Shown: one piece after another, positions 23,150 through 64,000 of the stretch
Layout: each line of letters opens with the position of its first letter
Position numbering within the stretch: position 1 is the stretch's first letter
Position numbers and translations under genes: made by a program
Notes under the pieces: generated by a model
The model's database searches: none
What the model was told of the DNA's origin: nothing
The model's input: the letters and a program-made list of their open reading frames with translations, nothing else
From: Schizophyllum amplum
Taxonomy: Eukaryota; Basidiomycota; Agaricomycetes; Agaricales; Schizophyllaceae
Direction: 5' to 3'
NCBI GenBank assembly: GCA_007026445.1
Contig: VDMD01000049.1
Span: forward strand, 148,598 to 212,597
Length of the DNA: 64,000 nucleotides

Positions 23150-23356
23150 TCACCACTCCCGCAGCTGCCTCTTCTCCTGCAGGTGGGCTGCGATCATCCT
23201 CTTCAACTCGTCGATTTCCAACTCTAGCTCCATGTAGTTCTTGTTTGAACCATGAGAAGCTGGTGTTTGTGCAACGCACCGACTCACCGATAGCGACAGC
23301 CCTATTTCCATTGTCTCCTTGAGCTTGCACTCGCTCCGGTTGCACTTTTCACACAT
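23150..23356 (-). CDS. MCxxCxxxxC tiny protein, subtype A-like (52 aa)
   Basis: Two exons, 23356-23288 (69 nt, 23 codons) and 23239-23150. The intron (48 nt) runs GTGAGT...CAAG at phase 0. The first exon starts MCEKCNRSEC and goes on KLKETM, as in the subtype A genes at 26967 and 63708. The second exon encodes a short charged helix (NYMELELEIDELKRMIAAHL). Three cysteines in CxxCxxxxC spacing suggest metal binding, possibly shared in a dimer through the helix; that is inference. Shortest member of the family. Unknown function. Confidence 0.7.
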   Translation of the reverse strand: MCEKCNRSECKLKETMEIGLSLSVSRCVAQTPASHGSNKNYMELELEIDELKRMIAAHLQEKRQLREW

Positions 23357-23523
23357 GGGAATGAGAGCCGAGAGCAAGTTCTGTCGCACCTCCACCTTTA
23401 CATTTTATCTTTGGCCCAAGCTCTACCATCCGCAGCCTTTTGTCAGGCGCGTGCCAACGGCCTCTCTGTCCGCCCTTCACCTTCTACATGTTCTTCACTC
23501 TCCACTCCCCTTGTCTTTGATTC

Positions 23524-23817
23524 TTACGCCTTCACGGTAAGCTGCCCTACGTTTCCCTCCTCATCCGTTGCAAAGACCTCTGGGCACAGCTCTTCCAGAT
23601 TTTTCATTCTCAGGTCAAACATTGCCTTTTTCCGGTACTGCTCGTTCAGCGCGGCCAGCTCTGTTTTGTATTCCTCCCGCAGTTCATCATAGGTCTGGAC
23701 CCCGTCAGGTTGTTTGCTCGTCCTTCCAATCATGCTGCCATTCACCTTGCCCGTGCGCAGCACTTCCGTCAGCAGCTCGGCACTTGTACAGTTTGCAAAG
23801 TTGCAGATGCGGCACAT
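23524..23817 (-). CDS. MCxxCxxxxC tiny protein, subtype E (80 aa)
   Basis: Exons 23817-23746 (72 nt, 24 codons) and 23694-23524; intron of 51 nt with a CTGAC branch, phase 0. First exon MCRICNFANC ... LLTEVLRTGK; second exon TYDELREEYKTELAALNEQY then LRMKNLEELCPEVFA and an acidic tail. The frame is also open across the intron, but the intron is supported by the same junction (RTG- / TY-E) in the genes at 28755, 29310 and the right edge. Unknown function. Confidence 0.7.
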   Translation of the reverse strand: MCRICNFANCTSAELLTEVLRTGKVNGSMIGRTSKQPDGVQTYDELREEYKTELAALNEQYRKKAMFDLRMKNLEELCPEVFATDEEGNVGQLTVKA

Positions 23818-24364
23818 GATGAAAGATGCTATCGGCGTGGGATGCAACATGTTGTGTTCCAAAGGGGTTGCTGTCCCAATTAGGCTGTCATCACCCTGTT
23901 TCCCCATGGGGACGCATGCGACCTACGTGGCCGCCACTCTTGCCCGATTATCAATCTTCTCATGATCCGTGTCACATCTCCTTCTATATGGGGTCGCGGT
24001 CGCCGTTCACGATTCGTATGATCTCTCATTCCTCGTACATGGCTTTGACCGCCTTCCCCCCTGTTGCCCCTATATCTCTAGGTACACCATACGCTTATGT
24101 TGCAAAGGAGCTCGCCATTTTGTGTCATCTTTCAGTCGCCCGCAGCTAACACCCTTACGCTTCGGAGGCCGCCGTTGTCGACGCGGATCTGACCAGCGAT
24201 GTGCTTTCCGAGAAGCAGGCAACGTGTGGTGAAGCATGCAGTCTATGGTCATGTTTTCTACTACTAGTATACGTGCACCACCTTTTCCATCGCTCCTTGG
24301 GGCCTGCTAATGATTAAATGCCGTTGCCCAGCCGGATTCGCACACTCACCGTATGTCTTACGTC
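23818..24364. other. Gene-free stretch
   Basis: Probable 5' region of the subtype E gene and 3' region of its right neighbour. I see no further coding sequence or repeat. Confidence 0.4.
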
Positions 24365-24641
24365 TCATTCAAACCCATATTCCGTGTGCGGTTCTCCTAA
24401 CGTCACCTGCGACACCATCCTTCCTGCCGACTGCACATCCTCTTCAGCTGCCTCCAATTCCTTTATGAGGCGATCCCTCCGCTCTTTGCGCTCCTTTAGC
24501 AGGAGAAGCGCATATATGCGCCAGAACTGATACATGTCAGGCCGCCAGTGGCATGAGAGCTTGATCTCGACGTACAGCGGGATTCTCCATCTCCTTGCGC
24601 AGTGCCGTCGCATAGCGTTGGTCATCCTTCTTCGAGTTCAT
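24365..24641 (-). CDS. Tiny two-exon gene without the cysteine motif (75 aa)
   Basis: Exons 24641-24576 (66 nt, 22 codons) and 24526-24365; intron 49 nt, GTACGT donor and CTGACATGTATCAG end, phase 0. Gene architecture, exon size and helical second exon (FWRIYALLLLKERKERRDRL) match the MC family and resemble subtype B (WRKM ... KKREEEE). The first exon, MNSKKDDQRYATALRKEM, has no cysteine, so either the motif was lost or this is an unrelated first exon. Less certain than its neighbours. Confidence 0.5.
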
Positions 24642-25189
24642 TTTTTGGATCAGCGCTGCACGATTGCCGAACGAGGTGATGGTAAGATTCAAGGGGCTCG
24701 CCGGAACTTATTCGCAGTCATTTGCAATGGCCGATCGAAAGCTTCTTCCCGGTGTCCGCTTTGGCAGCATGACAACCGGGTTATGTCTCCTTTGGCCCTC
24801 AATTCCCGGTCGGCAGCGGGACCACCACCACGTGCAATGTGCTCCGTCCGGGCTCATAATTGACCGCTATTAACAGATGCATCATTCGGTCGTGTCCGAC
24901 AGCGCGTGCTGCAAACGCCGGTGACCGCCATCCGGCCTTGCTCTTGGGGGAGGCCAAGCTCACGGAGTGCGCGCGTCCTTTAAGAGCACCTCAGAACCAT
25001 CAAGAGGCATTGGTTAGACTTTCGGAACAAGTATCTGTACCACGTTTATCACCCCCACCCCTTCGTTGACCATCCCGCCGTGAAAAGAGTCCCGCGCTTG
25101 CCGCATGTCGTCCAGTCCTGTGTTATCTGCATTCCGTGAGCTGCGGTGGTAGTATATTGCGTCCCGCGCACGCACCGTCTCCCTCCTTC
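24642..25189. other. Gene-free stretch
   Basis: No coding sequence, repeat or RNA gene that I can support. Confidence 0.4.
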
Positions 25190-25491
25190 CTACGCTTCTT
25201 CTGTCTCAATCCAATCCGCGTTCCACTCGGCGATTGTCTTCCCCCGTGCTTCTGCTATGCTCCATGAGATCACGGCCTTCCGGACATGAGCCAGCCTGCT
25301 TTTTGCGATCTTCAACTCCTCTTCCGTGTCCTGTGCGTACTCCTCCAGCTCCAGCAGCTGTTTCACCTGCTCCATCTGAAGCGTGTGAAATTGGCGAAGC
25401 GCCCGATGTGCGAGATGTAACGTACAAAAGGCCTGTCTAGCGGGTATGATTTTGCCAGAGGGCAGTCGGGTTTGGCGCAAGGGATGCACAT
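25190..25491 (-). CDS. MCxxCxxxxC tiny protein, subtype C (80 aa)
   Basis: Exons 25491-25426 (22 codons) and 25366-25190 (58 codons plus stop); intron 59 nt with GTACGT donor, phase 0. Starts MCIPCAKPDC PLAKSYP; second exon VKQLLELEEYAQDTEEEL, then ARGKTIAEWNADW. Its paralogue at 62450-62151 has exactly the same exon lengths and a closely similar sequence, which supports both models. Divergently transcribed from the subtype D gene starting 139 bp away. The helix probably mediates self-association. Confidence 0.78.
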
Positions 25492-25629: not shown

Positions 25630-25984
25630 ATGTGCACTATCTGCAGCCAGCCAGCATGCTCCCTCAACCAAGCCCTCTGCTTTATGATGCAGTCGAAAAC
25701 GGTAGCGCGGTCTGTCTCTCTGCCTGTCGTATTCTTCTGACGGCCCCGTCCAGACTGCGTCAACTGTGGCCGAATCCATTATCGTCAAACGCGAACTGAT
25801 CCGTCAGCTGGAGCGGGACCTCCAGGACGCGCGGCAGGCGCAGTACGACCTCGAGCGGCAGTTCTCCCACGTACTTTACTATGCACTGGATCACGATTGT
25901 GAACATGCCAAACAGGCGGAAGAGCAGGAGGAGGAGGCGCAGCAGGAGGAGGAGGAAGACGATGAGGATGCTTCACACAAGTAA
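25630..25984 (+). CDS. MCxxCxxxxC tiny protein, subtype D (100 aa)
   Basis: Exons 25630-25701 (24 codons) and 25754-25984; intron 52 nt ending CCGTCCAG, phase 0. Starts MCTICSQPAC SLNQAL; second exon ESIIVKRELIRQLERDLQDA, a clear coiled-coil candidate, then a Q/E/D-rich acidic tail. The only plus-strand member of this cluster, exactly as its partner at 62556 is in the second cluster apart from the gene at 61734. Confidence 0.75.
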
Positions 25985-26234: not shown

Positions 26235-26498
26235 TTAACCCGTCACCCTCTTCGCGTTCAGGTGCTGCCTGACCATCTTCTTGTAGTACTCGATTTCATC
26301 CCGCAAGTTGCTCTCCTCCTCCTCTCGCTTCTTCCTGATCGCGCGCATTTTCCGCCACTGTTCCTCTGCTTCCATGAACTCCTTGTTCTCTTGTCAGTTT
26401 CGGGCAGCGTTCGGACAGCAGCTTCGCACCCCCATAGTGACTTCTCGTCCTATAAACTGCGCCTGCTCGCACGATGATTCGTTGCACAGCTCGCACAT
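26235..26498 (-). CDS. MCxxCxxxxC tiny protein, subtype B (71 aa)
   Basis: Exons 26498-26430 (23 codons) and 26381-26235; intron 48 nt with GTGCGA donor and CTGAC branch, phase 0. Starts MCELCNESSC EQAQFIG; second exon EFMEAEEQWRKMRAIRKKRE then YYKKMVRQHL. About 45 bp upstream on the coding strand is TTGTCTCTTACCACCACC (26544-26562), shared with the paralogue at 63287. Confidence 0.75.
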
Positions 26499-26670: not shown

Positions 26671-26967
26671 TCACACCGCGGCGTCCGGCTCGGCTTTCCG
26701 CCCGTGGTCGCTCTCGTTCCTCATCCGGTGCTCCTTGATGCACTTCTTGTACCGCTCAATCCTGATCTCCTCCTCTCCGTTCTCCATTTCTAGTCTTGTT
26801 CTCGCGGCACGTATTTCCTCGAGCGCGTGCACGGCATACACGTAGTTCTTTTCGGCCGATTAGCGTGCGGCCCGCCGCGTATGATGCTTGGAACTCACGT
26901 GGGTCGCTGACGGTCTCTGCAGGGTCTCTCGCAGCTTGCATTCGCCGTTGTTGCATTGGAAGCACAT
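26671..26967 (-). CDS. MCxxCxxxxC tiny protein, subtype A (81 aa)
   Basis: Exons 26967-26899 (23 codons) and 26847-26671 (58 codons plus stop); intron 51 nt, GTGAGT donor, CTAAT branch, phase 0. Starts MCFQCNNGEC KLRETL; second exon NYVYAVHALEEIRAARTRLE, MENGEEEIRIERYKK. The paralogue at 63708-63417 has identical exon lengths. Charged helix, no membrane segment, no targeting signal visible. Confidence 0.78.
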
Positions 26968-27095: not shown

Positions 27096-28755
27096 CTAGT
27101 CTATGCATTCTTCCTCGTCGTCCGAGCCACACACGTGTAACATGAGTTCCACCTCCGCGTCGCTGTCTTCCCCCCCTTCGTCCCAGTTTTCCCCGCTCCA
27201 GAAGCCCTCGCTGTCGTCGGCCTGATTTGCCTCCGCGTTCTTTTGTTCAGCGTCGTTCAGCATGAGAATGTCGGGGAAGACCTCCATCAGGCTCTTTACT
27301 CGCACAGCCAGCCGGGCCTGCTGTTTGTACTGCTCTTGTAGCGCTTTGTGCTCCGCTCTGTACTCATTCCAGATCTCAGCGTATGTCTGCCTCTGGTTAG
27401 CTCGCTTTATCATCGGCCTTGCATCACTGCTGCTTACCATCCCTGTCCGGAGCACTTCGTTCAGCAGGTCGTAAGGAAAGGCACGGGTTTCGAAAACCCG
27501 CCGGGTCACGGGTAGGATCAGGTCACGGGTACGGGTACGGGTCGCACTCGGCCGACCCGCCAACCCGCCGCAACCCGTGGGAAATCCGCGAAAAATCCGC
27601 CGATAAAAGCTCAAGTTTGAGTCTGTGGACGTCGAATTCGCCAGAGGGTTATCTCATTGAAATCACAGGCATTGACGCGCAAAAAATACGCTCAAAAGCG
27701 GCTACGATTTTGCCAGCGTCAATGCGCGCGTCGGCGGCGGAGCTCGGCAACCCGGTCCGATGTGCCGCCCGCCCGCGTTCAACGTGTCTTGTTCTTCAAC
27801 CACGACCACCCCGACCTCGCGGCTGCCCCCAGGTCGCCCCCCTCCTCTCTCTCGACTTCGCGCACCTCAACGATTGAATAATTCAAGCTTTTCAGCGGTT
27901 GATTGCGGCACAACAAGCTGATTGAGGCGGATGACGCCGCTGAAACGGGCAGGCCTGCGCAGACGCGCCGCAGGTGCGTAGCTGCGCCTTACAGGGATTC
28001 TCTTACTGACAACCTCACGCTACAGCCCTTCAGCGCGAGTGGTGCGAGCGTGCAACGCCACCGTTGCGCCAGCAAAGGCCCCCCACTCACGCCTCTCCGG
28101 CCGTCAATGACGACGCGCGGAGCGCCCGACGTGCATGTCGCACATCCGGCGCTTATCTGCAAGGCGCCCAACCCCCCGCTCACCCTCCTTCCTTCCCCGC
28201 CTCGCACTAGCGCGCAGCCCGCCCTTGACCAAGAGCCAACCCGCTTGAGGACTCACCGCACCGGGACTTCGCGGTGCGGCTCTTGATCAAGGCCCGAGCC
28301 TCTTAGCACGTTCTACAAGGGCGGGGAGGCGTACGCGTACGCTGCGCCGGCGCCGGCCGCCAGCGAACTGCAGTGGCGCGATCGGGCAGGGTGGTCTTTC
28401 GTGCCGCATCGCTCCTGCCTCCACCTTGAGCCCTCGCGGCTTCGAGTGGCCTCCCCTCGCGTCTCTGTTTATGTAGTACATAGAGACACGTACATAGACA
28501 ATATACATGATTTAGATAGTTCAGAAGCAGCGCAAGGCGCTGACATCACCCTCAATGCACCCAAACGTCTCCCGCACGCTCTGAGCCACAACCCGTGATG
28601 TACCCGCGGGTAACCCGTGTACCCGACCCGTGCCGCGGGTACGGGTTTTGCACGGGTACGGGTACGGGTCAGCCTCAGAAACCCGGGGGTAGACCCGTGC
28701 CTTTCCTTAGCAGGTCGCGCATGCCGCAGTCCTGGCTTTCGCAGATGTGGCACAT
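27096..28755 (-). pseudogene. MCxxCxxxxC gene, subtype E, disrupted by a hAT-like insertion
   Basis: First exon starts at 28755 (MCHICESQDC GMRDL) and is interrupted at 28710 by the element 27472-28709. It resumes at 27463 (LNEVLRTGM) to a GTAAGC donor at 27437; second exon 27386-27096 (TYAEIWNEYRAEHKALQEQY, acidic C-terminus). Without the insert and one copy of the 8-bp duplication the exon would be 72 nt, the standard size for subtype E, and the product about 120 residues. As it stands, translation from the ATG runs into transposon sequence, so the gene is probably non-functional. Confidence 0.75.
27472..28709. mobile_element. Non-autonomous hAT-like element, 1238 bp
   Basis: Terminal inverted repeats of 17 bp (TAAGGAAAGGCACGGGT) are flanked by an 8-bp direct repeat GCAGGTCG (27464-27471 and 28710-28717), the target-site duplication size typical of hAT. 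Both ends carry subterminal arrays of ACGGGT/ACCCGT hexamers (about 27515-27545 and 28600-28670), probable transposase-binding sites. The inside has no transposase; it includes an imperfect hairpin around 28222-28290. It would need a transposase from elsewhere. Confidence 0.85.
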
Positions 28756-28910: not shown

Positions 28911-29310
28911 TTACGGATCGATGCACTCGTCCTCCGCCCACCTGTTCTGGTCTCTATCTATCCCTGTGGTCTCCCCTTCGATTTCGTCCTCCTCGCTGTC
29001 AACATACACGCCTTCGGCACGCATCGCGTCCTCCACTCTCTCCTCCGTGTCGTCGCTGTTCTCGAACATGTCCGTGTATATGTCGCCCCAGCGCGTCCGC
29101 GTCTTGTTGAGCATCACTATCCTGGCGGACGCTCTCTTCCACCGTTCTTCTTCTTCTTCGCATGCCCGCAGCAGCTCATCGTATGTCTGCGCCCATTGTC
29201 GTCAGCCAAGCGGTGCTTTTGGGCGGTCCGACACTTACCATTCCCAACATTATCACCTTCTTCAGCAGCTCGTACACCGGACAAGTGTTGGATATGCATG
29301 TTCTGCACAT
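28911..29310 (-). CDS. MCxxCxxxxC tiny protein, subtype E-related (115 aa)
   Basis: Exons 29310-29239 (24 codons) and 29186-28911; intron 52 nt, GTAAGT donor, CTGAC branch, phase 0. Starts MCRTCISNTC PVYELLKK; second exon TYDELLRACEEEEERWKRAS, then a D/E-rich C-terminal half ending WAEDECIDP. Together with its left neighbour it shows that subtype E members carry long acidic tails. Confidence 0.72.
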
Positions 29311-29796: not shown

Positions 29797-30719
29797 ATGC
29801 CCAAACGCCAGGCCTCTCCATCGGCACCGGTTTCCACCAAGCGCCGGGGTCTTTCAGCGTCCCTTGTTCGTGTGCCATCCCGTCGCTCTCCGTCTCTCCC
29901 CGTCGACCACCCGGATCAGCCCATTCACCCGATCTTTCAAGAAATCGAGGGCGCGCTGCAGGAGGTATCCCTCCGTGACGGCGCCGAACGCCTGCAGGGT
30001 TCCCGGTCGACTTCCCATGACGACTTTCCACTATCCGCGATCTATGCAGGTGCGTGTCCTCTCCACACGCAGTGACTTCCATGTTCACACCTGACCAGCC
30101 AACGTTCCTAAAGCCGGGCCTCATTCGTCCTCGCCGTTATTCACCCAGCGCCGTCGTTCTTCGCCCTCGGCCTCGGTCGCGTCGGTCTCGCTGTTACGGG
30201 CTGTTCAGCAATCTCCGTGCAGCATTGTCTCTTCGGACGGCTCCGACAGCTCCCTTTGCGAACCGTTGGCGCCCCTCCAGCACGTTGATGTTCCGTTTCC
30301 CGGTGGCGCCCATTCTGACGGCGAGTCTGACTCTGATGATGACACATCCTTTTCTGTTGCCATCGCGCGGTCGTTTGACACTCTGGATGCTCAAGCGAGG
30401 GCTGTCGCCGCACTGCGCGAGGCGATGATTGAAGAAGAAGACATGGTCCGCGAACTTCGCAAGTCGCTTCACGAGGAGCAGGAAAGGTGCAAGGCTCTTG
30501 AGGCGTCCTGCGCGCAGCTCAAGGGTGATCTTGATCGTGCCCTGCATGCAGTCAGTTCGAATTCACGGTATCCCTTGTCTTTTACTAACGGCCACCCTTC
30601 AGCACGGAGAGCTTCAGGAGCGGACTGCGGGTGTCGTGGCCCTTGTCCAAAGCCTTGAACATCAGATCGCAGCCATCGTGCAAACCGGTGCAGGCGGTCT
30701 GCCCGGCAGTACTTTGTAG
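29797..30719 (+). CDS. Coiled-coil protein, unknown function (273 aa)
   Basis: Three exons: 29797-30049, 30099-30550 and 30603-30719. Introns of 49 nt (GTGCGT, CTGAC) and 52 nt (GTCAGT, TACTAAC), phases consistent. N-terminal region is basic and S/P-rich (MPKRQASPSAPVSTKRRG), the middle acidic (SDGESDSDDDTSF), followed by a strong coiled coil at about residues 180-270 (VAALREAMIEEEDMVRELRK, then LQERTAGVVALVQSL). A chromatin or scaffold role is conceivable but not shown. The large palindromic transposon starts 28 nt after its stop codon and may have separated it from its terminator. Confidence 0.75.
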
Positions 30720-30738
30720 TGAGCAAGCTGTCCATAGC

Positions 30739-30747
30739 GGCCTTGCC
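30739..30747. repeat. Target-site duplication, left copy
   Basis: GGCCTTGCC, repeated exactly at 36961-36969 on the other side of the palindromic element. Confidence 0.85.
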
Positions 30748-32135
30748 ACTTAGGGGTACCGCCTACCTAAGCCTCTTAGCATAGTTAGATGGGTACCGAT
30801 TAGTATGCTAAGAGCCTAAGTTGGGCATTTAGTAAACCCTTAAATCGGACTTCTGCCAGACCGGTCTGGGGCACCTCCCAGGGTGCCCAGAGGGTAGTAT
30901 TAGGCCTACTATGGCCATCCTGGGTTGCAGGGGGAGGATGAGGGTGGGCAAAAAAAAGTTGGTTTAAGCGGTGCACTAAATAGTGCCCCGGGCCTTAAAT
31001 CGTACATCGACTTTTGGGTCCTGTAGGGCATCCCTGGACACGATTTGGGTATGCCCTTGGTCGGGTGAGTGGTGGGTATCTGCTGATGGAGTTTGAGCCC
31101 CATCCGATCAATGATGGCTGGGTGACCCTAGGCCTGCCCCCCTTATATTGGTACGCAAATTGCTGCCCAATTATGGCACTTCTGGATATGAAACATATAT
31201 GCCCATGCTCATATAGGTGTGCTGGAGGTACATACCGAGTCTCAAGTGAATCTAACCGTGTAAATTAAAGCTGCAGCTGGGCGGCCCCCCACCTCGTATC
31301 CACCTAGCTGCCTAGGAAAAGTGCCTCTACATGGTTGATTACCCTTCATGACATTTAGTACATACTAGATAGACTATTAGGAGGCCTTGTAGTAGACTGC
31401 AAGGCTCCGAGTCAGTTGTAAACAAGGGTCTTCAGTTAGGTAAATTTACAACCAGTCAGTTGATAATTCTACACCTTTCTTTTGCTTGTATAGGCACCAG
31501 GGATGCTCGATAGAGCCTTGAAGGCCATCGTAACACTAAAGGCATGCAGTGTAATGTTTAAGCTGGGTACTATTTAGTGCCTGCCCTATTTAGTGGCCTG
31601 CTTATTTAGTGCCCACCTTAAATCGGGGCACTATTTAGTGCCCGTCTTATTTAGTGTACATCTTATTTAGTGCACGCCTTAAATCAGGGCACTATTTAGT
31701 GCATGCCTTAAATCTGTGCACTATTTAGTGCATGCTCTAGTCAGTGTGTGTCTTATTTAGTGCCCGCCTTAAATCCGGGCACTATTTAGTGCACACGTTA
31801 AAGGCGGGCACTATTTGCTGTATATCTGAAGAGTGGACATTCATATTATATCTGTGTAAGTCAAGATACACCTATATGGCATGCATCTTGAACCTCTAGC
31901 TCACTATCTTATCATCTGACCAGGTTCCTTTGACAATAAGTAACTATATGCTAAGTCAAAAAATATCGAACAGTGTTGTATTAATTCCATCATTTAAGAA
32001 AACACTTAAGCTAACTGATCGGAAATCTCTGCAGCCGGCAAACGGCGGATTTTCCGGCAGAATCCGACCTTCCTTTTTGGGCGATCTCGTCCTGCCGCAG
32101 GACGACCGCCAGACGACCGCCCGCACGGCTGCCGC
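30748..32135 (+). repeat. Left inverted arm
   Basis: Matches 35570-36960 in reverse complement. Similarity fades after CCCGCACGGCTGCCGC (about 32120-32135). Includes the short-repeat cluster at 31563-31820. Confidence 0.85.
31563..31820. repeat. Cluster of CACTATTTAGTGC-type motifs in left arm
   Basis: About ten near-palindromic units (GCACTATTTAGTGC, or half-forms TTATTTAGTGC) alternate with CTTAAATC. The right arm holds the mirrored cluster at about 35890-36140, and an isolated unit sits at 30973. This resembles subterminal transposase-binding repeats. Confidence 0.75.
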
Positions 32136-33410
32136 TTCGCGGTCGTCGGTCGCTGTTTATTCATTATGAGGCGTATATTGTACACATGTAGTCTATATAT
32201 ACAAAGGGTGAAATCCTCAAAAAAGAAAAGTGCGTGAAAAGAATAGCCCGCGCGTAAGGCGCTCGCTCGGGGTGAGGGAACCGCGAGAGCCCGTGCATGG
32301 ACTTGAATGATAGGGTATGGAATGGATGTACGTACCAGTAGACGCGCTTGCTAAGAAGCCCGTTGTGCTGGCACTGCGCGGCCACGCGGTCAGGCGCAAC
32401 GCACATAGGGCTGATCGCGGCGGTGACGGCAGCGGCAAGCGCATGCAGCGCGCGTTGGGGCCGGGTGGGGGCCTCCTATGACGAGGTGTTGAGCAGACAA
32501 GCCCAGAGGAGGGCCCGCTGCGGGGGACGCGGGATCGTCGCGAGGGTGACCATGCCGCGTGGGGGCGCGGCGCCGGCAACAAGGGGGTGGTCGCGCCTGG
32601 CCTGATGTAGTAGGCAGGGATGTGAAAGCGCGCGACCGGCGGATGCGGGAAGGACAAGGCTGAGTGCTTGAGTGCGCCGTGAGAGAGGCGGCACATGTAG
32701 GGGGAGGGGGGCGCGGGGGCGCGGAGGGCGTAAAATGGTGTGCGCTCATCGCGGGCGAAACGACCGGAGCACGGATTCTGCCTGCTCAGTCTGTGCGAAA
32801 TCGTCGCTTTGTAGGTCCTGCCGTGGTATAGTACGTCATGAATGCGAAGACGGTGGTGTGCGCCGGTGGCTAGCGTAGGCGGGGCACGAACGTGCGGCCG
32901 GGGCGGCCGGGGGTGTGGGCGGGAGGATGGCATAGGCGGGGAAGTGGGCGTGGGCGGAGACGTGGGCGATGATCGCGGTGCGTTGCAGATGCGACGCAGT
33001 GCACCGTGCACCGCTGCGGGTGCGGCGTGAGGTGACAGTGTCCCGGACGCGGCAAGGAGCGCACGGGCGCGAGTGGCTAAGGAGCCCCACGCCGCTCGTA
33101 TGAGTAGCGCAGTGCATCCTCCTCCTCCTCGTCGCCCTTGACGCTTGCTCGCCCATCCTCCCTAGCCGTATAGAGGGCGAGCGTTGGAGTGCCGCCGCGT
33201 CATTGTGGGCTTCGTGGTGCGCGAGCGCCGCCGCATCATTACGGGCTTCGTTGTGCGGCGGCGCGCGGCATCAGCGCCACCTCTCCCTTGCGCGTTACTG
33301 TCTTGGATACTGTGTATATCGCGTCTATCAGCTTTTAGGTCACAGCGCCGCGTGTAGGGGACGTACCTGGGCGGGTGAGCGCTCACAGCGCCTCGCCCGC
33401 CATTTCCACT

Positions 33411-33760
33411 GCAGTGCGCTCTTGAGTCCCTCGTTTTGCGTAAGATTCAAGAGAAAGGTGGGGGAGGGTGTATCGAGGTTGCCGTACGTCCAGAAAAGCG
33501 ATATCGGCAACCACGACTGGCCGGTGTCGTGGTTGCTGGGAGAGAGACGTTGATCGCGGACGGTCGGCGCAGCGGACCGGTGTCCGAATGTCGCCGTCGT
33601 TGCACTCAACGGCCTCGGGAACAGACCGCAGGATGTTTGAGCTCAAGAGCTCTTGAGCAATGTTGTTTAATGTGTACTCTTAGTCGATTCTGAAATTTTT
33701 GTAAGGAGGCGATCATAGGAAGGTATGGAACTTGAGGTCACCTTTTGTATGCACGAAGTC
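33411..33760 (+). repeat. Inner diverged inverted repeat, left half
   Basis: Pairs with 34310-34655 in reverse complement at roughly 70-75% by eye; best-conserved blocks are CACTCAACGGCCTCGG (CGCTCAACGGCCTCGG in the partner) and TTTTGTAAGGAGG. Confidence 0.55.
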
Positions 33761-34309
33761 GAGTGCAAACCACTTGCGCAACCTGTCGTTCGGGTGTCGT
33801 TTCGATGTCCCTCGCACGTATTTTCATGGAATCGTGTCAGTCAAAGCTGGGGCATGTAGTTTGAGTGCCCCCCCATCTACCTATGTAGGTCTTAATGGTC
33901 ATATATGACTAAACAGAATAGAAACAAGCAATGAGTGCACTCAAAGAGCTTACTGATAGCCATGTCATATTTAGGTATATTCGAAGGCCCTGAGACCCAT
34001 CGCACACCCAGATCAATCAATGGATGACCTATCTAGTGAGTACCTATGTTGTTACATGCTCTGGAACGCACCCGATGTCTTACAATCGTGACCGTGTTCC
34101 CCCGGCGGATGCAACTTGATGAACACGATCATGACTTTCTTTACGTTCCAGACCTATGAAGGCATTGTGCAGTACATAGTCATACAGGGGGGACCTCATA
34201 CTACATATATAAGCTTTGACTGTTGTGATAACATGGATTTACGTGTGGGGGACGTCCAAACAACGCGAACACAAAGGGTTCTAAACTGAACTCGACTCAA
34301 GTTCCTGCG

Positions 34310-36960: not shown

Positions 36961-36969
36961 GGCCTTGCC
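36961..36969. repeat. Target-site duplication, right copy
   Basis: GGCCTTGCC, identical to 30739-30747. Confidence 0.85.
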
Positions 36970-54098: not shown

Positions 54099-55656
54099 TT
54101 TTCCGCCGGACTGTTGAGCTGCACGCGCATATTTCCGTCGCTACCTTACACATTTACTGTACCGTCTAAGATAATTCACTCTCGCTACACAGAACCTCCG
54201 TCCCTTATGGGCGAGCCTTTCGTATATGGGCGGTTATTGATCTCTGTTTGTCATTGTCGGTCTGATTGTGATCGGGGGACATGTTCCGCCTTCTCCTTCC
54301 ACCACACGCTCTCATTTCGCGCCTCCTCCCACTCCGATCTCCTCATCTTTCTTCCTCGCGAAAACGCTACCAACGCTGCGTCTGGTTGAGTGATACACGG
54401 GGAACTGCGGTGCGTCGCGTGTATTCGCGCAAATGTTGCCGTTGACTTACAGCGTGTTCAGACCACGCGCCCAACGCCTGGCCTCTTGCTACGCCCCGCC
54501 CAGCATTTCACCGCGCGCCAAGGGGGCTGTATCTCCTCCCCCACCCCTCCCCTCCCTCCCCGGCAGAAGCAGGACCCGTTTTGAGTCCTCACCGCACTGG
54601 GAATTCGCGGGTTCTGCTTCGTGCTTGTGGGGGGGGGACAATACTGGCGCCCTCGCCGCCGCGCACCGCGCCCTCGCTACGCTCCCCGCCCAAGAAGCTT
54701 CAGCCCCCACGCGCGGCCTCTTCAACACACGCAGATCGCGTCACCCCGCCGTCCATCTTCGCACGCGCGGCTTCCCTTGCGCTGCACGTCAAGCCTCTCG
54801 TGCATCTCGCGGCACCCGCATTCCTGCGCCTCACGCATAGCGCGTCGCGGCCGCGCGCCTTCCACGCTGCACGCGCCATCCACGCTGCACGCGTCTCCCG
54901 CGCTGCATGCGTCTCCCGCCCTGCACGCGCCCCGCCGCTTCTTGCCCCCCGCCCAGCTCCCTCAAAGCCTCCCTCAGACCGCGCGCCACGCTTCTTGCGC
55001 CTCTCGCACCACGCGCCACGTATCGCCACACCGCGCCTACCGCGCTCTACACACCCCGCGCTGCGTGCCCCTTGTGCTACGCGTCGCGCCCTCCGCCCTT
55101 CGCGCATACGCCGTCATCCCCGCGGTCGCATCCCCTGCGTCTCTCGTACCCCACCCCGCGCGCCTGAAGCACACGCCGGCGAGCCGCACGACCACACGGG
55201 CCGCCTCAATCCCGCGCTCTCGCGCGACGTCCGCTGTCCAAGCACCGTACATCTCCCGCTCCGCCTGCGCCCGCGGAGACAGCACCGACGCCTACCGAGG
55301 CTGCTGGCGGACAAGACAGCCGACGCGCATGTCGCGTCTCGGGATTCTGGAAGGGCAAATACGGGGAGCGCGGGATGCGGGTGGCGTGCGGCCGAGCTGC
55401 GTCCGCGCGCGAGTTCTATATATTGGTGTAGCTACTATCGCAGATCCTGTAAGTACATTTGCTATCCATACTGTGCTGCCCCCAACGCGAGCCCTGCAAA
55501 GGCTCAGGCTGTGATCGTCAAACGTGGTCACAATCGACGTGACACTTCGCCTGTCGTACGAGTTCGTCCTGTGCTCTGCCTTCCACGACCGCTGTTTGTC
55601 GCTTCGCTACAGCTCGCACTGCGCTACGCCGAACGTCTTTCGCAGTCACGCTGATC
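54099..55656. other. Intergenic, C/G-rich low-complexity DNA
   Basis: No supported gene. Long open frames at 54581-55654 are R/P/A/H-rich and come from base composition. Near-repeats of GCACGCG(C/T)C...CCGC at 54855-54940 form a short minisatellite. A segment at 54574-54600 resembles parts of the hAT-like element (28243) and of the first TET exon (41347). Confidence 0.5.
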
Positions 55657-58600
55657 ATGGATTATAATATGCTGTCCTCGGTGCGTCGCAGGTCGCGAAA
55701 GCGCTGCTACCACGATATCTGACCGCGTTCGCAGAGCCTGTCCGAACCGGAGCCAACTCAGCTGACACCTACGGAACCTGCAACCTCCCAGCCTACGCAG
55801 CAGACGCCGTCCGAACCAGCAACCTCACAGCGCTCGCAGGCTACTTCGCAGCCGCAGAACGATCCCTCTCTCCAGTCCGACCTGCTCACAACGAAGCTGC
55901 TCAAGGCATACGACCTTGTTGTTAACACCATCGACCACGTCATCATCTGCATTAGTTGCCGCAAAGTCGTTGAACCTTGCCGGCCTTCCAGCTCATATGC
56001 GTCGCGAGCACGGCGCTGGCTCTCGTACCATTGGAGCCGAGGACGCGGCTTCGATACAGCGCCACCTACTCAAGCTCGGCGCATCCGCCGATTCCATACC
56101 CTTCGTCCCGTCCGTTGAGCCTCGCCTTCCAGTCAAGGGAATCTCCTCGCCCGTCCCGGTCTTCGGCTGCAGCAAATGCGCTTTCGTCCACTCCCGCGAC
56201 ACCGAAGTAAACACTCACTGCAAGGACGACTGCGAAGAGGGTGGTAGCCTCCTTCCTCACCCCGGTCTTTGTACAACGCCCCAAGAACCCTGGACCATAC
56301 ATTCGCGTTATTTACGAGGCTCCGACGAATTCTCCCGCCCCTACTGCACCACCACTGCACTCGGTCCAGAGCGAGCTCGACGCGTTTCACGCAGCCCTTG
56401 CAGACGAGAACGCCAGTGCCCCTTGTGATACGCGTCGTATTAGCGCGTTTCTCATGCGTATGCAGTGGCCGCAGCTCGTCAGCGACAAGCCCAAGCCTGC
56501 GATCAGGAACGCTGCGCGCTTTCCTGAAGACACCGAGTTTCCTGGGCTGCGAGAGGTCATCACGGCTTATTTTGATGAGACGACGGAGTCTATCAACAGC
56601 GTAGACCTCCTTGGGCAGCAGCTTCTCAATACGGCCCATGCAAACGCGTACGTGGTCATCCCTCAATTATTGCCTGCTCATCCATAATTCACTTTCATCC
56701 ATCTGCGAGTCCCTGTGCACCTCATCTATAGTCATCCCAATTTTGTCCCGCCTCCTCATAATGTGGTTCGGGCCTCCGTTGATATTCTTACAGGCCGCTC
56801 AATCACGTACCAATCCACAAGCACCACCAGCACGACACTACGATACTCGACTACGTCCGTCACCCCATCCGCTTGATGGCTACACTTATGCGCGGTGATA
56901 CCGCATTCGAGATTCCATCCTCGGACGCCCTGACGGCTGCGGTAGACAGCCTCCGTTTGAAGATACGCGACGGCGACGAGCTGCTCGTCTCCGACGTTCA
57001 CGCCGTCACCCGAGCGCTCTGGCTTCACGAGTGACGGCGCGACAGTACAGTGCAGACCCTCTGTGACCCAACGGTGGCTTACCTCGCCATGATCTCGGTG
57101 AAGGCAGACGGCGGCTATATGGATGCGCCAGCTTTGACGGGTATTCTCGCTCGGCTGAGTCGGGCAATCCAGCTCACCGTCGTCCACGAATTACACGACT
57201 GCACCCAAAATTCGACCTCGGGCGACCAGATGGCTGCACTCGAGCCCCTCCTCATGTTCGTGCAAGAGGATCATCTCACCACGTTCGCCACACTTCGTTC
57301 CTTCCAGCACTATGCATCCCAGATCTCGTATAGCACGCTGTCTCTCCCTCGCATATGGTGGCTCGATCTTGTTAACCACAGGTCGCTGCTATATCTTGGT
57401 CGCAGAGTTTCGATAGACGACTTTCACACAATTATCGTCGACGTCCAGAAAAAAGCGGTTGAGGCATTCGAGTGGCTCACCGGCGGGGCAGACACGACAA
57501 TCGATTATAGCCTGTTCCCCGATAATTTGCGCAACACCACCAACGGCTACAGTGTCATCGACTCCTCCTCGCCGATTGTGCAGAAGGCCCGCCACGACTT
57601 CACCGCTGCTCTACTTGCAAACCAAGAGTTGAAGCTTGTCGATCCTACAACTGGCGAACTCTCGATGCATCACGCACGACGTTGGATGTTGGTCCTCTCG
57701 CAGCTCGAGGGCTACCTTATGGTCCTCACGCAGCTGACCAGTGGTGGTCCTGCACGAGGAACAGAGCTGACATCCATGATCTATCGCAATACACCCGAAC
57801 GCCAACGCAACTTCTACTTCTTTGGTCCGCGCGTTGGCTTCGTCCGCGAGTACAACAAAACATCCAACATATTGCAGCACGATCAGGTCATTCCAAATGC
57901 CTACGACGCGTTCACGGGAGATATGATCACACGGACATACTGCTTCCTCCGTCCGAACTCCTGTTTCTTCGCCGTCAAATTGTGGCCGGAACGCAGCCCG
58001 CAGATAGCGCACGACTACAACACACTCATGTTCATGGATTGCGGAAAGCAGTTCACGTCAGGCCGTCTCAGCCAGCTGCTCGGTGCCGAGTCTGTCCGTG
58101 TCATTGGGTGGGAGATGACCATTATTCCCGTACGCCACATCTTTGCCGCCACAAATCGTTACCTCGCCCCTTCCCCCGAATGCGAGGAGAATGCGGGTCG
58201 CGAATCAGATGACCTCAACAGTGCTCAGTCCGGTCATACCCCCGTCGTACACAACCGTATCTATGGTGTTTCCTACACTGCTCTTAACGGTGCCGACGAG
58301 AGAGTGTGCCTTCGATTTTTCAAGAACAGTGACCGTATGGCGAACGTATACGGTGCTTACGCTGGTGGAGAAGGCAAACCGTACACAGAGGTCATGGCAG
58401 CGACATATGACTCAGCCCCAGTACCTTCGCCAAAAGTGCACCAGCCTCCTGCACCTCCCTCGCATGCACACTCCGAAGGCCTTCCACCATCTATGGAGAA
58501 TGTGATGTCGCACTTCACGACTCTGATCACGACCTCATTGGGTGATGTCTCGAAAAAGCTTGAAGACGTCACCGCAAAGCTTGACGAGATGAGTGCTGCA

Positions 58601-60163
58601 CAGCAGAGCATGAAGGATGAGATTGTACGTCTGCAAAGCGAACTGCGGGAGAGACCAACATGTGCGTAACTTGTCCTAACATGCAAATTTTGATAAGGCT
58701 GACGATAATTTAGTGCCAGATGTCGACATGCCTTATGTCTCTCCTACTGCACCTCCATCACCTTTGCCTGCAAAAGCGGCTGACATAGGGCCTCCCCGAG
58801 TAGTGTTTGGCAAAGGTGAGCCATCCAAATTATGGGAATGACTTGGATAATTGACATGAACCGCAGGTGGCAGCATGACAAGCATATCAACAGCTTTCCG
58901 TATGTCTTACGCAAATGCTACTTCTGCACTGAACTGAACTCACTACAGCCTCGAGGACAACAAAGCCATTGCCACTACGCGCACACGAAACAACTCGGGT
59001 GACAAACGGTATGCAGGAGCAATATTTGTGCACAAGATTATACTCACATCGTTGATAATTTAGATGCCGCAAAGGTCATCCACAAAAGTCCTACACAGCC
59101 TCAGATCAACGGATACGAGAGTGACGATAGTGATGCTCTATACCGAGGACCGAACAGTCCCCCACCACGAAAGCGTCAAAAACTCGGAACAGCATCTACA
59201 AATTTCACTGGACATCTAGAAAGTGAACAGGTTGCAGGTTCCGTCCCCGATTATACGACCACTCCTCATAATTGTGAAGCAAGTGCTGTGTTGGAAGCGC
59301 CCGCGCCATGTGTGTATCCGTCTACAGAGTTGTCTTCTTTTACTGACTATCGATAGACTTCGAACCAGTGCAAGGCATGGAATGCATCCGCGATAAGCCA
59401 TACCCCGTTGGGCAACCTCCCGATTCAACTGATGTTGTCCTTGGTCTACAAACCCTTATGCGTGACACCTCCGCTAAGTGGAAGTCCCTCGAGCAGCGCG
59501 TAGCAGTGGCCATGATGATGGAACTGAAGCGGGACATGATTGTCAGCGTGCGAACCGGTGGAGGAAAGTCCATGGTCGTACTTGTCCCTACCCTCTATGA
59601 GCGTGGTTCAGTGTGCATCCTAATGGTTCCTTTGCATGCCCTGCAACAAGATTGGAAGCGACGGATGGACGACATGGACGTCCGCTACGAAGAATTCCTA
59701 GGATCGAAGCATAAAGGACCGCCACAACGCCTGACGGGGGAACATGGAATCATCATTGTCTCCGTTGATGTTGCACGAAACCGACTGTGGAAGGAGGCTT
59801 TGGGCGAGCTGATAGGATCGGGAGTCACAATTACTCGCACTGTCATTGACGAAGGTCACCTCTTCCTCACTTCGCAGTTCCGTCCGAACCTCAACGACGT
59901 CTACGAACTGCGGATGGTAGAATGCCCACTTGTCATTCTCTCCGCAACTATGCCGCCTGCTTCTATACCGTGGTACACCTCCGCCTTGAATTTGGAACAC
60001 CCACTCGTAATTCGCGGCTGCACTGATCGTCCGGAGCTTGTTTATCAAGTCCAAAAACCCTGGAGCAGAATAGCCGACATCAACAATCGCATTCGCAGGA
60101 TCATAGCGGAGAAGGTCTTAGCTCCTGAAGACCGCTACATGATCTACTATCCACCTTACCCGC
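55657..60163 (+). pseudogene. Degenerate zinc-finger / RecQ-type helicase gene, telomere-linked-helicase-like
   Basis: Exons: 55657-55680, 55735-56647, 56794-58661, 58714-58815, 58867-58899, 58949-59008, 59064-59309, 59357 to about 60163; junction phases agree. N-terminal zinc-finger-like part: ICISCRKVVE, LPAHMRREHG, then CSKCAFVHS ... HCKDDC. The middle (56794-58661) carries GGPARGTELTSM and a Q-rich helical tail. The C-terminal exon has helicase motif I RTGGGKS (about 59555), motif II DEGH (about 59850) and motif III SATMPP (about 59941), i.e. only the first RecA lobe. Such zinc-finger plus RecQ proteins in fungi are often subtelomeric. Defects: one-base frame shifts near 55975 and 56240, an in-frame TGA at 57032 where tryptophan is expected, and loss of the second helicase lobe where the AGAACCGGTTCT repeat begins. 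Assignment of the zinc-finger family (DUF3505-like) is from memory of the pattern. Confidence 0.68.
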
Positions 60164-60190
60164 GGTTCTGCTAGGAGAACCGGTTCTGCT
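60164..60190. repeat. Second copy of the AGAACCGGTTCT junction
   Basis: CCGCGGTTCTGCTAG then GAGAACCGGTTCTGCT, closely matching 16741-16771. The helicase frame ends within this segment. Confidence 0.6.
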
Positions 60191-61136: not shown

Positions 61137-61598
61137 CTAGACGCACCATAGCCTTGTCGTCCGCCGCTGCTGCCAAATGAGATGCCTTCCAGTCGGTCGT
61201 GGTAATTCCGTGGCACTTGGCCGAGTCCAATGTCTCTGCAGCATCCTGGTTCCCATTAGCGCACTGATGAGCTGCAATCTGCGGAGGCGCACCTCGCCCG
61301 TTATCATTTCAGCTAACGAAGATGTCTTCCATTCTGTCGTGGTGATGCCTTTGCGCCTCGCTGACTGCCACTCCTTTACTGTGCTGATGGCCTTCTCCAT
61401 GCGCTCCCGCAGCACATGCCACTCCTTCTGCTTGCTCCTCCTTTCCTTGAGCTCACGGCGTAGCAGCTCGGCTTCGATGTCCTGAGAGGCGTGAGCTTGT
61501 GATCCCAGCAGGAGGAGGACACGAACAAACGACTTGCGGTTGGGGTGGTTGAACGCTTGCGCGAGCGCGCAGTCCGGGGCAGCACAAGTAAGACACAT
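61137..61598 (-). CDS. MCxxCxxxxC protein, subtype C-like with extended tail (138 aa)
   Basis: Exons 61598-61527 (24 codons) and 61481-61137; intron 45 nt with unusual GTTCGT donor, phase 0. Starts MCLTCAAPDC ALAQAFNHP, most like the subtype C genes. Second exon DIEAELLRRELKERRSKQKE, then ARRKGITTTEWKTSSLAEM. The C-terminal 60 residues come from a second, out-of-frame copy of the GTTAEW-coding DNA, so the natural end was probably lost. Upstream on the coding strand lies TTACCACCAT (61611-61620). Confidence 0.65.
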   Translation of the reverse strand: MCLTCAAPDCALAQAFNHPNRKSFVRVLLLLGSQAHASQDIEAELLRRELKERRSKQKEWHVLRERMEKAISTVKEWQSARRKGITTTEWKTSSLAEMITGEVRLRRLQLISALMGTRMLQRHWTRPSATELPRPTGRHLIWQQRRTTRLWCV

Positions 61599-61733: not shown

Positions 61734-62065
61734 ATGTGTGTTATCTGCACGAATCGAAAGTGTGAGGTCATTCGACTATTGAAATGCATGCTGCGCGCTG
61801 AAAAGGTGCGAGAACATGTGCGCGCTACAAGCTCAACACTAACGGTGTCCCTTAGACCCCAGCCAGTGTTGCCGAAGCCAGGCAGAAGGAACGCGGGAAC
61901 ATGGAACGGCTGGACCAGGAGCTATGCGAGATGCGCAAGGTCTTTAACGACCTTCACACCAGGTATCCCCGAGCGTTTTACGACACTGAGGACACGGATG
62001 CGAGGGACGCGGAGGAGAGGGCGGAGGGCGCCATGGCTGATGAGCCGCAGGGGCAGACCGAATAG
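61734..62065 (+). CDS. MCxxCxxxxC tiny protein, subtype E-like (93 aa)
   Basis: Exons 61734-61805 (24 codons) and 61856-62065; intron 50 nt, GTGCGA donor, CTAAC branch, phase 0. Starts MCVICTNRKC EVIRLLK; second exon EARQKERGNMERLDQELCEM then an acidic tail (DTEDTDARDAEERAEGAM). Divergent from its left neighbour, 135 bp apart. The upstream region has CCCACCATCACCAC. Confidence 0.75.
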
Positions 62066-62150
62066 CATTAAAGGTCATGTAATCCTGTATGCTGCGCGCG
62101 TCTGCAAACAATCAGCTGCTGCTGCCAAGCGAGGTTCACCCACGCACCTT

Positions 62151-62450
62151 TTACGCCCCACCAGCGTTGAACCACTCCTCATTCCACTCGCTTATCGTCT
62201 TTCCCTGCGCCTTTGCTGTCTCCCACGAGCTGGTGGCCTCTCTCAAGTTCGCAAGCACGCTTTTTTCCAACTCGTACTGCTCCTGCGTCAGGCGCAATTG
62301 CTCCTCGAGCTGCAGCAGCTCCTGCACCTGTCGCATGCAGCACAGGTCAGATAAGCGGATGCTCCCCACGCAAAGAACACGCACAAGGGATGCTTGCATT
62401 GGATACGCTCTTGCCAGATCGCAGTCGCGTTCGGCACAAGCAGGGCACAT
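62151..62450 (-). CDS. MCxxCxxxxC tiny protein, subtype C (80 aa)
   Basis: Exons 62450-62385 (22 codons) and 62327-62151 (58 codons plus stop); intron 57 nt, GTGCGT donor, CTGAC branch, phase 0. Starts MCPACAERDC DLARAYP; second exon VQELLQLEEQLRLTQEQYEL then AQGKTISEWNEEW. Exon lengths are identical to its paralogue at 25491-25190, a strong check on the model. Confidence 0.78.
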   Translation of the reverse strand: MCPACAERDCDLARAYPMQASLVRVLCVGSIRLSDLCCMRQVQELLQLEEQLRLTQEQYELEKSVLANLREATSSWETAKAQGKTISEWNEEWFNAGGA

Positions 62451-62555
62451 GGTGGCGCAAGGCAGAATGTGGCGAGCGGTGTCATCTTATTGGCAATATG
62501 CGACCGACGCACGCCCCTTTTCCCGATCGTCCATCTCATCCCCCTGGCTTTCACC

Positions 62556-62901
62556 ATGTCGACGTGCGCTGTCAACCAACAACTGCGCTCTATGATCCAG
62601 TCGGGCACGGTAGAAGCTCCCTGCCTATCCTACCTGTTACACCTCTGACAGCCTTGTCCAGCCTCTCTGCCATGTGGCGCAAGCCATCATTGTAAAGCGC
62701 GAGCTGCTCAAGCGGCTGGAGCAGGACCTGGAGGATGTGCAGGAATCTGTGAACAACCTCGAGAGAATGTACTCGGATGTGCTGTATTATCCTCTGAATT
62801 GTGATTATGACGAGGAGGAAGACGGCGACAGCAACGAGGAGCAGAAGGAGCAGCATCAGATTGTTCGGGAAGAAGACAGGGTGGCGGACGCGCAGGTGTA
62901 A
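62556..62901 (+). CDS. Tiny two-exon gene, subtype D, cysteine motif eroded (97 aa)
   Basis: Exons 62556-62609 (18 codons) and 62662-62901; intron 52 nt ending TTGTCCAG, phase 0, as in the paralogue at 25630. Second exons align well (IIVKRELLKRLEQDLEDVQE against the D1 version). The first exon, MSTCAVNQQLRSMIQSGT, is 18 bases shorter than that of the paralogue and lacks MCxxCxxxxC. The frame is otherwise intact, so either the cysteines are dispensable or the protein has changed role. Confidence 0.68.
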
Positions 62902-63025
62902 ACATTATGTATCTTCAACATCGCTTACAGCGTGTATATCTGCATCGCATGCGGGTGAGCGCGCTCACTCTCTGGTCGCCCGTCAGCAGCGTGCTTGCTT
63001 TCGGACAAGTCACTCACAGCGGATG

Positions 63026-63287
63026 CTACGAGCCCTTCTTATCCACGTACTCCCTGACCGCCTTCTGGTAGTAGTCAATCTCATCGCGGACGTTGGCCTC
63101 CTCCTCCTCGCGCTTCTTTCTGGTGGCCTGCATCTTGCGCCACTTGTCCTCGACGCGGACGTATTCCTGATCTTGTTGTCAGCTGCGCACCCAAGATCCA
63201 CGCGCGCCCTCTACGCACGCTGATGTGCACTTGCGGTCCTATGAACTGCGCCATCTCACACGTCTTCTTGTCACAAAACTGGCACAT
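63026..63287 (-). CDS. MCxxCxxxxC tiny protein, subtype B (69 aa)
   Basis: Exons 63287-63219 (23 codons) and 63166-63026; intron 52 nt, GTGCGT donor, CTGAC branch, phase 0. Starts MCQFCDKKTC EMAQFIG; second exon EYVRVEDKWRKMQATRKKRE, YYQKAVREYV. Paralogue at 26498. The coding strand has CTTGTCTCTTACCACCACCA 44 bp or so upstream of the ATG (63331-63350). Confidence 0.77.
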
Positions 63288-63416
63288 GCCGGAGGTCGCG
63301 GTAGCTGCGATTGCTGTTGGTCCGACGCGATGGTGGTGGTAAGAGACAAGATGGGTTTCACGTTGCATCCTTCCTTATATATTCGTGCTCCCCCTCCATC
63401 CCGATCTGTCACTGGT

Positions 63417-63708
63417 CTATGGATCGGCGCTCGAGGTGCTTTCAGCGCCGACACCCCTCCTGTTCGCAGCCTTCCAAGCCTTGATGCGCTCCTTATACAT
63501 CGCAATCTTGCTCTCTTCCTCCTTGTTTTCCATCTCTACACGGGTTCTGACTTGGCGTATGCCCTCGAGGGCGCGCATGGCGTACACGTAGTGCTGCGCT
63601 GCCCATCAGCAGCGTACAGGCAACCTTTCGGCCACGCACATAAAGGCTCACGGGTTCCGTCATGGTTTGCTGCAGCTTGCATTCCGCGTCGTAGCATTGA
63701 TTGCACAT
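63417..63708 (-). CDS. MCxxCxxxxC tiny protein, subtype A (81 aa)
   Basis: Exons 63708-63640 (23 codons) and 63593-63417 (58 codons plus stop); intron 46 nt, GTGCGT donor, phase 0. Starts MCNQCYDAEC KLQQTM; second exon HYVYAMRALEGIRQVRTRVE, MENKEEESKIAMYKE. Exon sizes equal those of the paralogue at 26967-26671. The upstream coding strand has GCCTTAGACCACCATC (63724-63741). Confidence 0.78.
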
Positions 63709-63770
63709 CTTTGACGGCTCGAGATGATGGTGGTCTAAGGCAAGATGGAGCTCAAGTGCACTCCTCGATA

Positions 63771-64000
63771 TCAGGGACCAACAGCATGCCTTCCACCCTC
63801 GGCCTCCTCCTCCAGCTCTTCGGCTTCCTCGTCATCTCCCTCTCCCGACGCAAACACCTCTGGACAGAGCTCTGCCAGGTTTTTTCATTCGCACCGCCAA
63901 GTGGCCCCGCTCCAGGTACCGCTCGCACAGCGCCTTCTTTTCTGCTTCGTATTGCTCCCAGAGCTCGGCGTACGTCTGCGCTGCGTTAGGAGTCACCCAG
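63771..64000 (-). pseudogene. MCxxCxxxxC gene, subtype E, second exon with frameshift (5' part outside window)
   Basis: The second exon starts at 63975 after an intron with a CTAAC branch and CAG end (63976 to beyond 64000). It reads TYAELWEQYEAEKKALCERY ... LAVRMK, and then an A6 run (near 63892) shifts the frame; one base fewer would continue with a match to NLAELCPEVFA as in the gene at 23817, then a D/E-rich tail and a stop at 63771. Exon length 205 nt is not a multiple of three. The first exon with the cysteine motif should lie just right of the window. Confidence 0.62.

Follow-up and report, generated by a model that had tools for sequence, protein, structure and literature searches.

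A subtelomeric family of tiny two-exon genes with an N-terminal three-cysteine tag and six recurrent types in Schizophyllum amplum

Schizophyllum amplum (Agaricales, Schizophyllaceae; also known as Auriculariopsis ampla) is related to the split-gill mushroom. Two arrays of tiny two-exon genes, whose products start with Met-Cys-x2-Cys-x4-Cys, lie in a 64,000-nt stretch of its genome (GenBank assembly GCA_007026445.1, contig VDMD01000049.1, positions 148,598 to 212,597 of the forward strand; below, the window). We call these genes the MC family and list the members in the window, with the features beside them, in Table 1. A first-pass annotation, made by a model from the sequence alone, had reported thirteen such starts. 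A six-frame scan found each of them in place and no others in the window, on the minus strand at 23356, 23817, 25491, 26498, 26967, 28755, 29310, 61598, 62450, 63287 and 63708, and on the plus strand at 25630 and 61734. In 100 dinucleotide shuffles of the window the DNA pattern of the motif occurred 0.05 times on average and twice at most; none reached 13, which rules out a chance origin. The annotation had placed the family in a single range from 23150 to 63975. All starts are inside this range, but they form two arrays, at 23.1-29.3 kb and 61.1-64.0 kb, which are separated by approximately 32 kb of other sequence.

For a detailed description we curated 34 distinct paralogs from the whole genome, excluding copies without a clean frame, and this set was used for the analyses of splicing, selection, charge, conservation and heptads. 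Six types, A to F, were recognised among the spliced proteins, which are approximately 70-120 residues long. In all 34 paralogs a GT-AG intron of 43-57 nt follows codon 22, 23 or 24 and is followed by one helical exon. The reported length of the first exon was thus confirmed, with 22 codons in most A genes, 23 in C and D, and 24 in B, E, F and two A genes. The reported phase-0 intron of 45-59 nt holds for 12 of the 13 window genes, which fit an intron of 45-57 nt, while the thirteenth (MCHICESQDC) is interrupted. MCHICESQDC is broken by an insertion and exon 2 of MCEKCNRSEC is shortened to 29 codons; at least two genes of the window are damaged. Since phase-0 donors were imposed in the gene-model scripts, an unrestricted donor scan served as a check. 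Between nt 50 and 99, the 34 paralogs contain 24 GTRNGY donors in phase 0, two in phase 1 and none in phase 2. The curated donor itself matches the GTRNGY consensus in 21 of 34 paralogs. At the acceptor, a shift by a few codons is possible in some genes.

The deposited gene models P0002, P0003, P0004 and P0006 are identical, letter for letter, to our spliced predictions, and P0010 includes the splice of a window D-type gene. Three protein searches, which were not exhaustive, yielded 12 protein clusters with 21 member sequences, among them at least six fused or late-starting models. Neighbouring genes are fused in P0001, P0009 and P0010, and P0008, P0009, P0011 and P0012 start late, which shows that tiny genes of this kind are poorly annotated. 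That the MC genes are a real family of two-exon genes, with the MC-x2-C-x4-C start, a fixed intron place and a helical second exon, is secure.

Table 1. MC genes and adjoining features of the window (positions are those of the window; lengths of introns in nt).
Feature	Position	Strand	Details
D-type, MCEKCNRSEC	23150..23356	-	exon 1 23356-23288, intron 48, shortened exon 2 23239-23150 (29 codons)
E-type, MCRICNFANC	23524..23817	-	exon 1 23817-23746, intron 51, exon 2 23694-23524; identical to deposited P0004
A-type, MCIPCAKPDC	25190..25491	-	exon 1 of 22 codons, intron 50 (59 possible), exon 2
B-type, MCTICSQPAC	25630..25984	+	acidic tail; divergent partner of A at 25491, 139 bp between ATGs
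C-type, MCELCNESSC	26235..26498	-	exon 1 of 23 codons, intron 48; exon 2 start shared with deposited P0010
D-type, MCFQCNNGEC	26671..26967	-	exon 1 of 23 codons, intron 51; splice shared with deposited P0010
E-type, MCHICESQDC, split by insertion	27096..28755	-	exon 2 spans about 27386-27099; the copies on C30 and C291 are uninterrupted
hAT-like insertion, 1,238 bp	27472..28709	.	inverted ends, 8-bp direct repeats GCAGGTCG; absent from the copies on C30 and C291
F-type, MCRTCISNTC	28911..29310	-	exon 1 of 24 codons, intron 52, acidic-tailed exon 2; identical to deposited P0003
Gene G, multi-exon, adjoins F	29797..30720	+	Ser/Arg-rich, basic start followed by a coiled-coil-like stretch; outside the MC family
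A-type, MCLTCAAPDC	61137..61598	-	exon 1 of 24 codons, intron 45, exon 2
B-type, MCVICTNRKC	61734..62065	+	divergent partner of A at 61598, 136 bp between ATGs
A-type, MCPACAERDC	62151..62450	-	exon 1 of 22 codons, intron 57 (63 possible), exon 2
Degenerate B-type	62557..62900	+	divergent to A at 62450; first two Cys lost; exon 2 at 62674-62877
C-type, MCQFCDKKTC	63026..63287	-	exon 1 of 23 codons, intron 52, exon 2
D-type, MCNQCYDAEC	63417..63708	-	exon 1 of 23 codons, intron 46, exon 2
E-type (HVC subtype), exon 2	63755..63975	-	three frame pieces; exon 1 past contig end, present on C164, C243, C249 and C301

In the whole genome of 49.65 Mb the motif pattern occurs 167 times and the reversed control pattern 68 times. 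This shows that the motif is enriched, and among the matches listed the excess sits in clusters. The fetched clusters contained 104 first-exon matches on 11 contigs (C30, C164, C223, C242, C243, C249, C254, which is the window, C275, C291, C300 and C301), and for 101 of them an automatic two-exon model was obtained. Genome-wide searches, the queries of which contained exon 1, revealed an additional F gene (C291:25878), which is located just beyond the fetched stretch and is outside this number. The 104 matches should not be equated with loci per haploid genome, because near-identical contigs could be alleles of a dikaryon. Searches with exon 2 only, in which A_LTC was represented by residues 25-81, revealed the tag at most 190 nt upstream in 102 of 118 matches; these are counts of match pieces, not of genes, the queries came from tagged genes, and the test is local because the searched loci had been picked for MC clusters. 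Among the 16 untagged matches, seven run into the end of the fetched sequence or contig and six represent copies of a single degenerate B gene. The other three are the window gene split by the insertion, an A-gene fragment and, on C301, a weak match. A further match on C209 was rejected as a family gene, being a truncated copy of an A-gene tail.

The types differ in charge (A_LTC was trimmed to its first 81 residues for this analysis). Type A is near neutral and has a W-containing C-terminus, the helix of C and D is on average net basic, with Y25, E43, I53 and Y56 common to both types, and the tails of B, E and F have mean net charges of -9 to -12.5. The first-pass annotation had described a charged helical second exon that sometimes carries an acidic tail, and this can be made more precise: strong acidic tails are present on B, F and three of the five E paralogs, and on none of the A, C and D types.

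The types also recur in the same order, a divergent A/B pair followed by C, D, E and F. This order is present in the two arrays of the window and again on C275, where a third array has diverged from them. Window array 1 reads, from right to left, F 29310, E 28755, D 26967, C 26498, B/A 25630/25491, E 23817 and D 23356. Array 2 extends past the contig end, and its full order is found on C243, C301 and C164 (F, E, D, C, A with degenerate B, B/A). The C275 array contains A/B, C, D, E, F and then B, C, E, F, with the first E backed by an exon-2 match and the second by exon 1 only. Divergent B genes are found 115-217 bp from A in 23 of 29 A genes, and the other six all represent a single A gene, copied together with the degenerate B as its neighbour. 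In the upstream regions, CCATCAT is present in 10 of 40 120-mers, compared to a maximum of 5 in ten shuffles, which is suggestive of a shared promoter motif. The division into types and their conserved order near chromosome ends, which the first-pass annotation had not noticed, point to a heteromeric set rather than to homodimers alone.

The position near chromosome ends is best seen on C275, where the array reaches the telomere repeats: the distance from the start of the outermost F gene (131413) is 0.5 kb to the nearest end of this kind, the first TTAGGG/CCCTAA dimer, and 2.8 kb to the terminal array of TTAGGG. Thus, the MC genes are amplified in subtelomeric copies. Two parts of the window resemble telomere-bearing contigs: 55370-60147 is 92% identical to a part of C172 that ends 1.7 kb short of the telomere array, and 16726-20028 is 98% identical to the start of C240, which bears a telomere. 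All 104 first exons are located at most approximately 41 kb from a contig end, which taken alone is weak evidence because many contigs are short. Between the arrays, near the second one, an open reading frame (ORF) at 59347-60174 encodes a RecQ-like helicase (DEAD, E 1.2e-14; helicase Q5 and WRN chains, E 4e-7 and 6e-7). RecQ helicases are located subtelomerically in Agaricus bisporus and other fungi (PMC7473861). The surroundings of the window ORF likewise match a telomere-bearing contig, but in our case the helicase gene is a neighbour and not a member of the MC family, and it marks the region as subtelomeric.

Small ORFs in such a region could be passengers with little or no function, multiplied only via blocks exchanged between chromosome ends. 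In line with this, long blocks are approximately 95-99.6% identical between contigs and lie among transposons, and genes broken by an insertion (28755), by a frameshift (C30:5061) or degenerated (62557) are present. However, the MC genes are under purifying selection. The ratio of non-synonymous to synonymous rates (omega), calculated according to Nei and Gojobori (NG86), was 0.15-0.59 in the listed within-type pairs (above 30% identity) with measurable synonymous divergence (dS), apart from 0.03 in a saturated and 0.69 in a very recent pair; single values are rough because many dS exceed 1. Differences at codon positions 1, 2 and 3 (0.29/0.26/0.43; 22 pairs above 45% identity, without B_VTC2, which was also excluded from the analysis of residue conservation) were highest at the third position and agree with omega. 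Even among six near-identical copies of array 2, coding sequence varies less than introns: 3, 7 and 11 of 409 sites are variable at codon positions 1-3 (0.7/1.7/2.7%), compared to 9 of 250 in introns (3.6%) and 56 of 1443 in intergenic regions (3.9%), and the non-synonymous to synonymous rate ratio is 0.31, from 12 and 10 changes. Together with the conserved intron position, this makes the passenger explanation rather unlikely.

Protein searches with the MC family matched only hypothetical proteins of S. amplum (BD626DRAFT models). No convincing match was found among proteins of other species in these searches, which require shared 5-residue words, so that distant relatives could be missed and absence from S. 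commune is not implied. The search with P0007 detected P0003 (67% identity) and no other F protein. In Pfam (hmmscan, E up to 1, 22 members), no family among the 25 of 30 listed scored below E 0.0029, this value being a weak match of one of the 22 members to Med30, and the three matches of the first member were below the cut-off scores. Membership in a named domain family was rejected on these grounds, and the view of the first-pass annotation that no described family has this architecture still stands. Sequence searches in PDB yielded mostly coiled-coil chains with E 0.047 or worse, and a fold search (Foldseek) yielded nothing below E 6.7 with the E-type model and no chain with the A-type model. 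Among the papers listed in literature searches, none names the family. A developmental transcriptome has been analysed for Auriculariopsis ampla (PMC8893723). In the reading that we favour, the MC family is young.

Two further explanations should be considered here. The MC proteins could be telomere-linked regulators similar to the TLO proteins of Candida albicans, that is, subunits whose variable or acidic tails feed into the transcription machinery. We know of no TLO protein that bears a Cys tag; moreover, the Med2 domain is absent among the Pfam families listed for the 22 members, and the single-member Med30 match may be coiled-coil noise. If this match is taken at face value, it supports such a role, as does the net charge of the B, E and F tails. 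In addition, a short N-terminal module with variable tails has been amplified in subtelomeres, which resembles the TLO family (PMC9713401). On balance, we regard this explanation as improbable. Alternatively, the genes could be selfish or conflict genes, for example in meiotic drive or nuclear non-self recognition, the types being interacting partners. Their clustered, multi-type and subtelomeric nature and the restriction of all protein matches to S. amplum are compatible with this. In addition, two near-identical B genes (L049 4792 and L046 4014) differ in 5 of 24 residues in exon 1 and in 1 of 93 in exon 2, which may be due either to gene conversion or to fast change of the Cys exon. On the other hand, no known driver domain was found in the Pfam scan among the families listed, and purifying selection dominates, making an origin in genetic conflict very improbable.

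How could the products be built? The AlphaFold model of an E-type protein (P0004; predicted local distance difference test, pLDDT, 81) shows a loop at residues 1-10 and helices at 11-22 and 26-60, and that of an A-type protein (P0005; pLDDT 78) shows helices at 11-16, 19-67 and 72-86. In both models a helix begins directly after Cys10, and the helix break coincides with the splice junction in the E-type model, not in the A-type model. The first-pass annotation had assumed a coiled coil, for which the indications are mixed. In the best heptad register, position a falls on the second residue of exon 2 in each of the 20 paralogs of types B, C, D and F (not independent of each other); the test of individual paralogs, given below, supports a coiled coil only in part. 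No hydrophobic leader was detected by eye, the chains opening with Met-Cys and a mixed loop, and the proteins are apparently not secreted. Within residues 1-24 of the 34 paralogs, no position other than M1, C2, C5 and C10 is invariant. A Met before Cys is normally removed, leaving a free N-terminal Cys, and with M1 and C2 invariant this Cys could be a lipidation site or a redox- or oxygen-sensing N-degron, with CxxC as a disulfide switch. Such a function would not need all three Cys and their spacing, yet both are kept, and the third Cys is located at the helix start in both models. We therefore consider it quite improbable.

Instead we tentatively favour, at somewhat less than an even chance, a lineage-restricted subtelomeric family that encodes a heteromeric six-type cassette of intracellular coiled-coil proteins with metal-binding N-terminal Cys. 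The unit of the family is this cassette, the divergent A/B pair and then C, D, E and F in fixed order, and each product is predicted to have the Met-Cys-x2-Cys-x4-Cys loop, a helix right after Cys10 and a helix of 35-50 residues. The types may assemble with each other via their long helices into heteromeric bundles, A with B being a first guess because the two share one promoter region. After removal of Met, the three N-terminal Cys of each chain could hold a metal ion (most likely zinc). The missing ligand would come from the N-terminal amine or from a Cys of the partner chain, and the metal would clasp the rods. If the subunits act together, exchange between chromosome ends may keep the sets complete. 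The acidic tails may point to regulatory or chromatin work, and acidic tails and basic helices together would fit complementary association or work on nucleic acids or chromatin. It is unlikely, but worth considering, that this is a new kind of assembly, a heteromeric coiled-coil complex of six dedicated paralogs whose N-terminal Cys3 half-sites form a full metal centre only between chains and whose genes travel among chromosome ends as a complete kit.

Several observations weigh against the cassette reading. The confidence of the Cys loop is modest in both models (block means 68 and 67), and no fourth ligand is visible, because only M1, C2, C5 and C10 are invariant. Individually, 13 of 34 paralogs and none of nine A types pass the heptad test against shuffles (p<0.05), so that support for pairing of A with B via coiled coils is weak. 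Two of five E paralogs have no acidic tail, and one of 24 B genes (C275:129414) has no motif-bearing A partner. Moreover, the fixed order and the gene pairs also follow from block duplication alone, and the copy number is uncertain because near-identical contigs could be alleles. In addition to the roughness of single omega values, the deficit of amino-acid changes in the six recent copies is carried by A_LTC (5 synonymous, 1 non-synonymous) and D_NQC (2, 0) and is not seen in B_VICN (2, 6), A_PAC (1, 2) and C_QFC (0, 3). Finally, a long TTAGGG match is present on five contigs, all of which except C248 were covered. MC genes were found only at the fetched end of C275 and not in the approximately 10 kb fetched from C7, C172 and C240, and no TTAGGG pair is present within the window. 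If the cassette reading is nevertheless true, the MC family would provide a natural and compact set of helical proteins that interact with each other and carry a metal clasp. Kept as a kit at chromosome ends and found so far in one species, it would offer a testable case of the birth of a new multi-subunit complex.

Relatives of gene G (Table 1) are located beside the arrays on C30 and C291, with one match on C220, and this gene may encode a further partner of the MC proteins. The hAT-like label of the insertion in the E gene is based on its inverted ends and 8-bp repeats, not on coding matches. A 6.2-kb element at 30745-36963 has inverted arms of 1,091 bp (94%) and a 314-aa ORF without a Pfam match; C30 and C291 lack it at the corresponding site. 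Further to the left, a Ty3-type element (13650-16727) has an open frame of 1,025 aa with reverse transcriptase, RNase H, integrase and chromodomain. The sequence between the arrays also contains five copies of a 164-nt direct repeat (38462-39380) and, at 48081-49074, five to six repeats of approximately 140 nt, each with an acidic (GAC/GAG) stretch and then GGCCTCCTCC...GGTGAGTG; these repeats resemble a small exon that has been multiplied together with its intron. No RNA family matched at gathering score.

Finally, the MC family can be compared with known systems. In fungal Zn2Cys6 (Gal4-type) proteins, two three-Cys halves (C-x2-C-x6-C) precede a linker and a coiled coil. Three-Cys halves, and possibly a coiled coil, are common to both, and two MC chains in a dimer would give six Cys. 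However, the MC spacing is x4 and not x6, Zn2Cys6 is not among the listed Pfam families, and each MC chain has three conserved Cys instead of six in two halves, C2, C5 and C10 being the sole invariant Cys (residues 1-24 of 34 paralogs, whole chains of 22). The zinc knuckle, C-x2-C-x4-H-x4-C, has the same C-x2-C-x4 spacing, but the third position is Cys in 34 of 34 MC paralogs and no conserved ligand is present within residues 11-24. In terms of genome biology, a close parallel is the TLO family of C. albicans, which is subtelomeric, amplified and lineage-specific, and whose products contain a MED2 domain and join Mediator (PMC9713401). Both families consist of lineage-specific subtelomeric copies that move between chromosome arms and combine a conserved N-terminal module with variable tails, whereas no Cys tag, cassette of paralog types or divergent pairs are described for TLO in the part of that report used here. 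Subtelomeric lineage-specific families are thus already known, and what the MC family adds is its tri-Cys tag, its six-type cassette and its divergent pairs.

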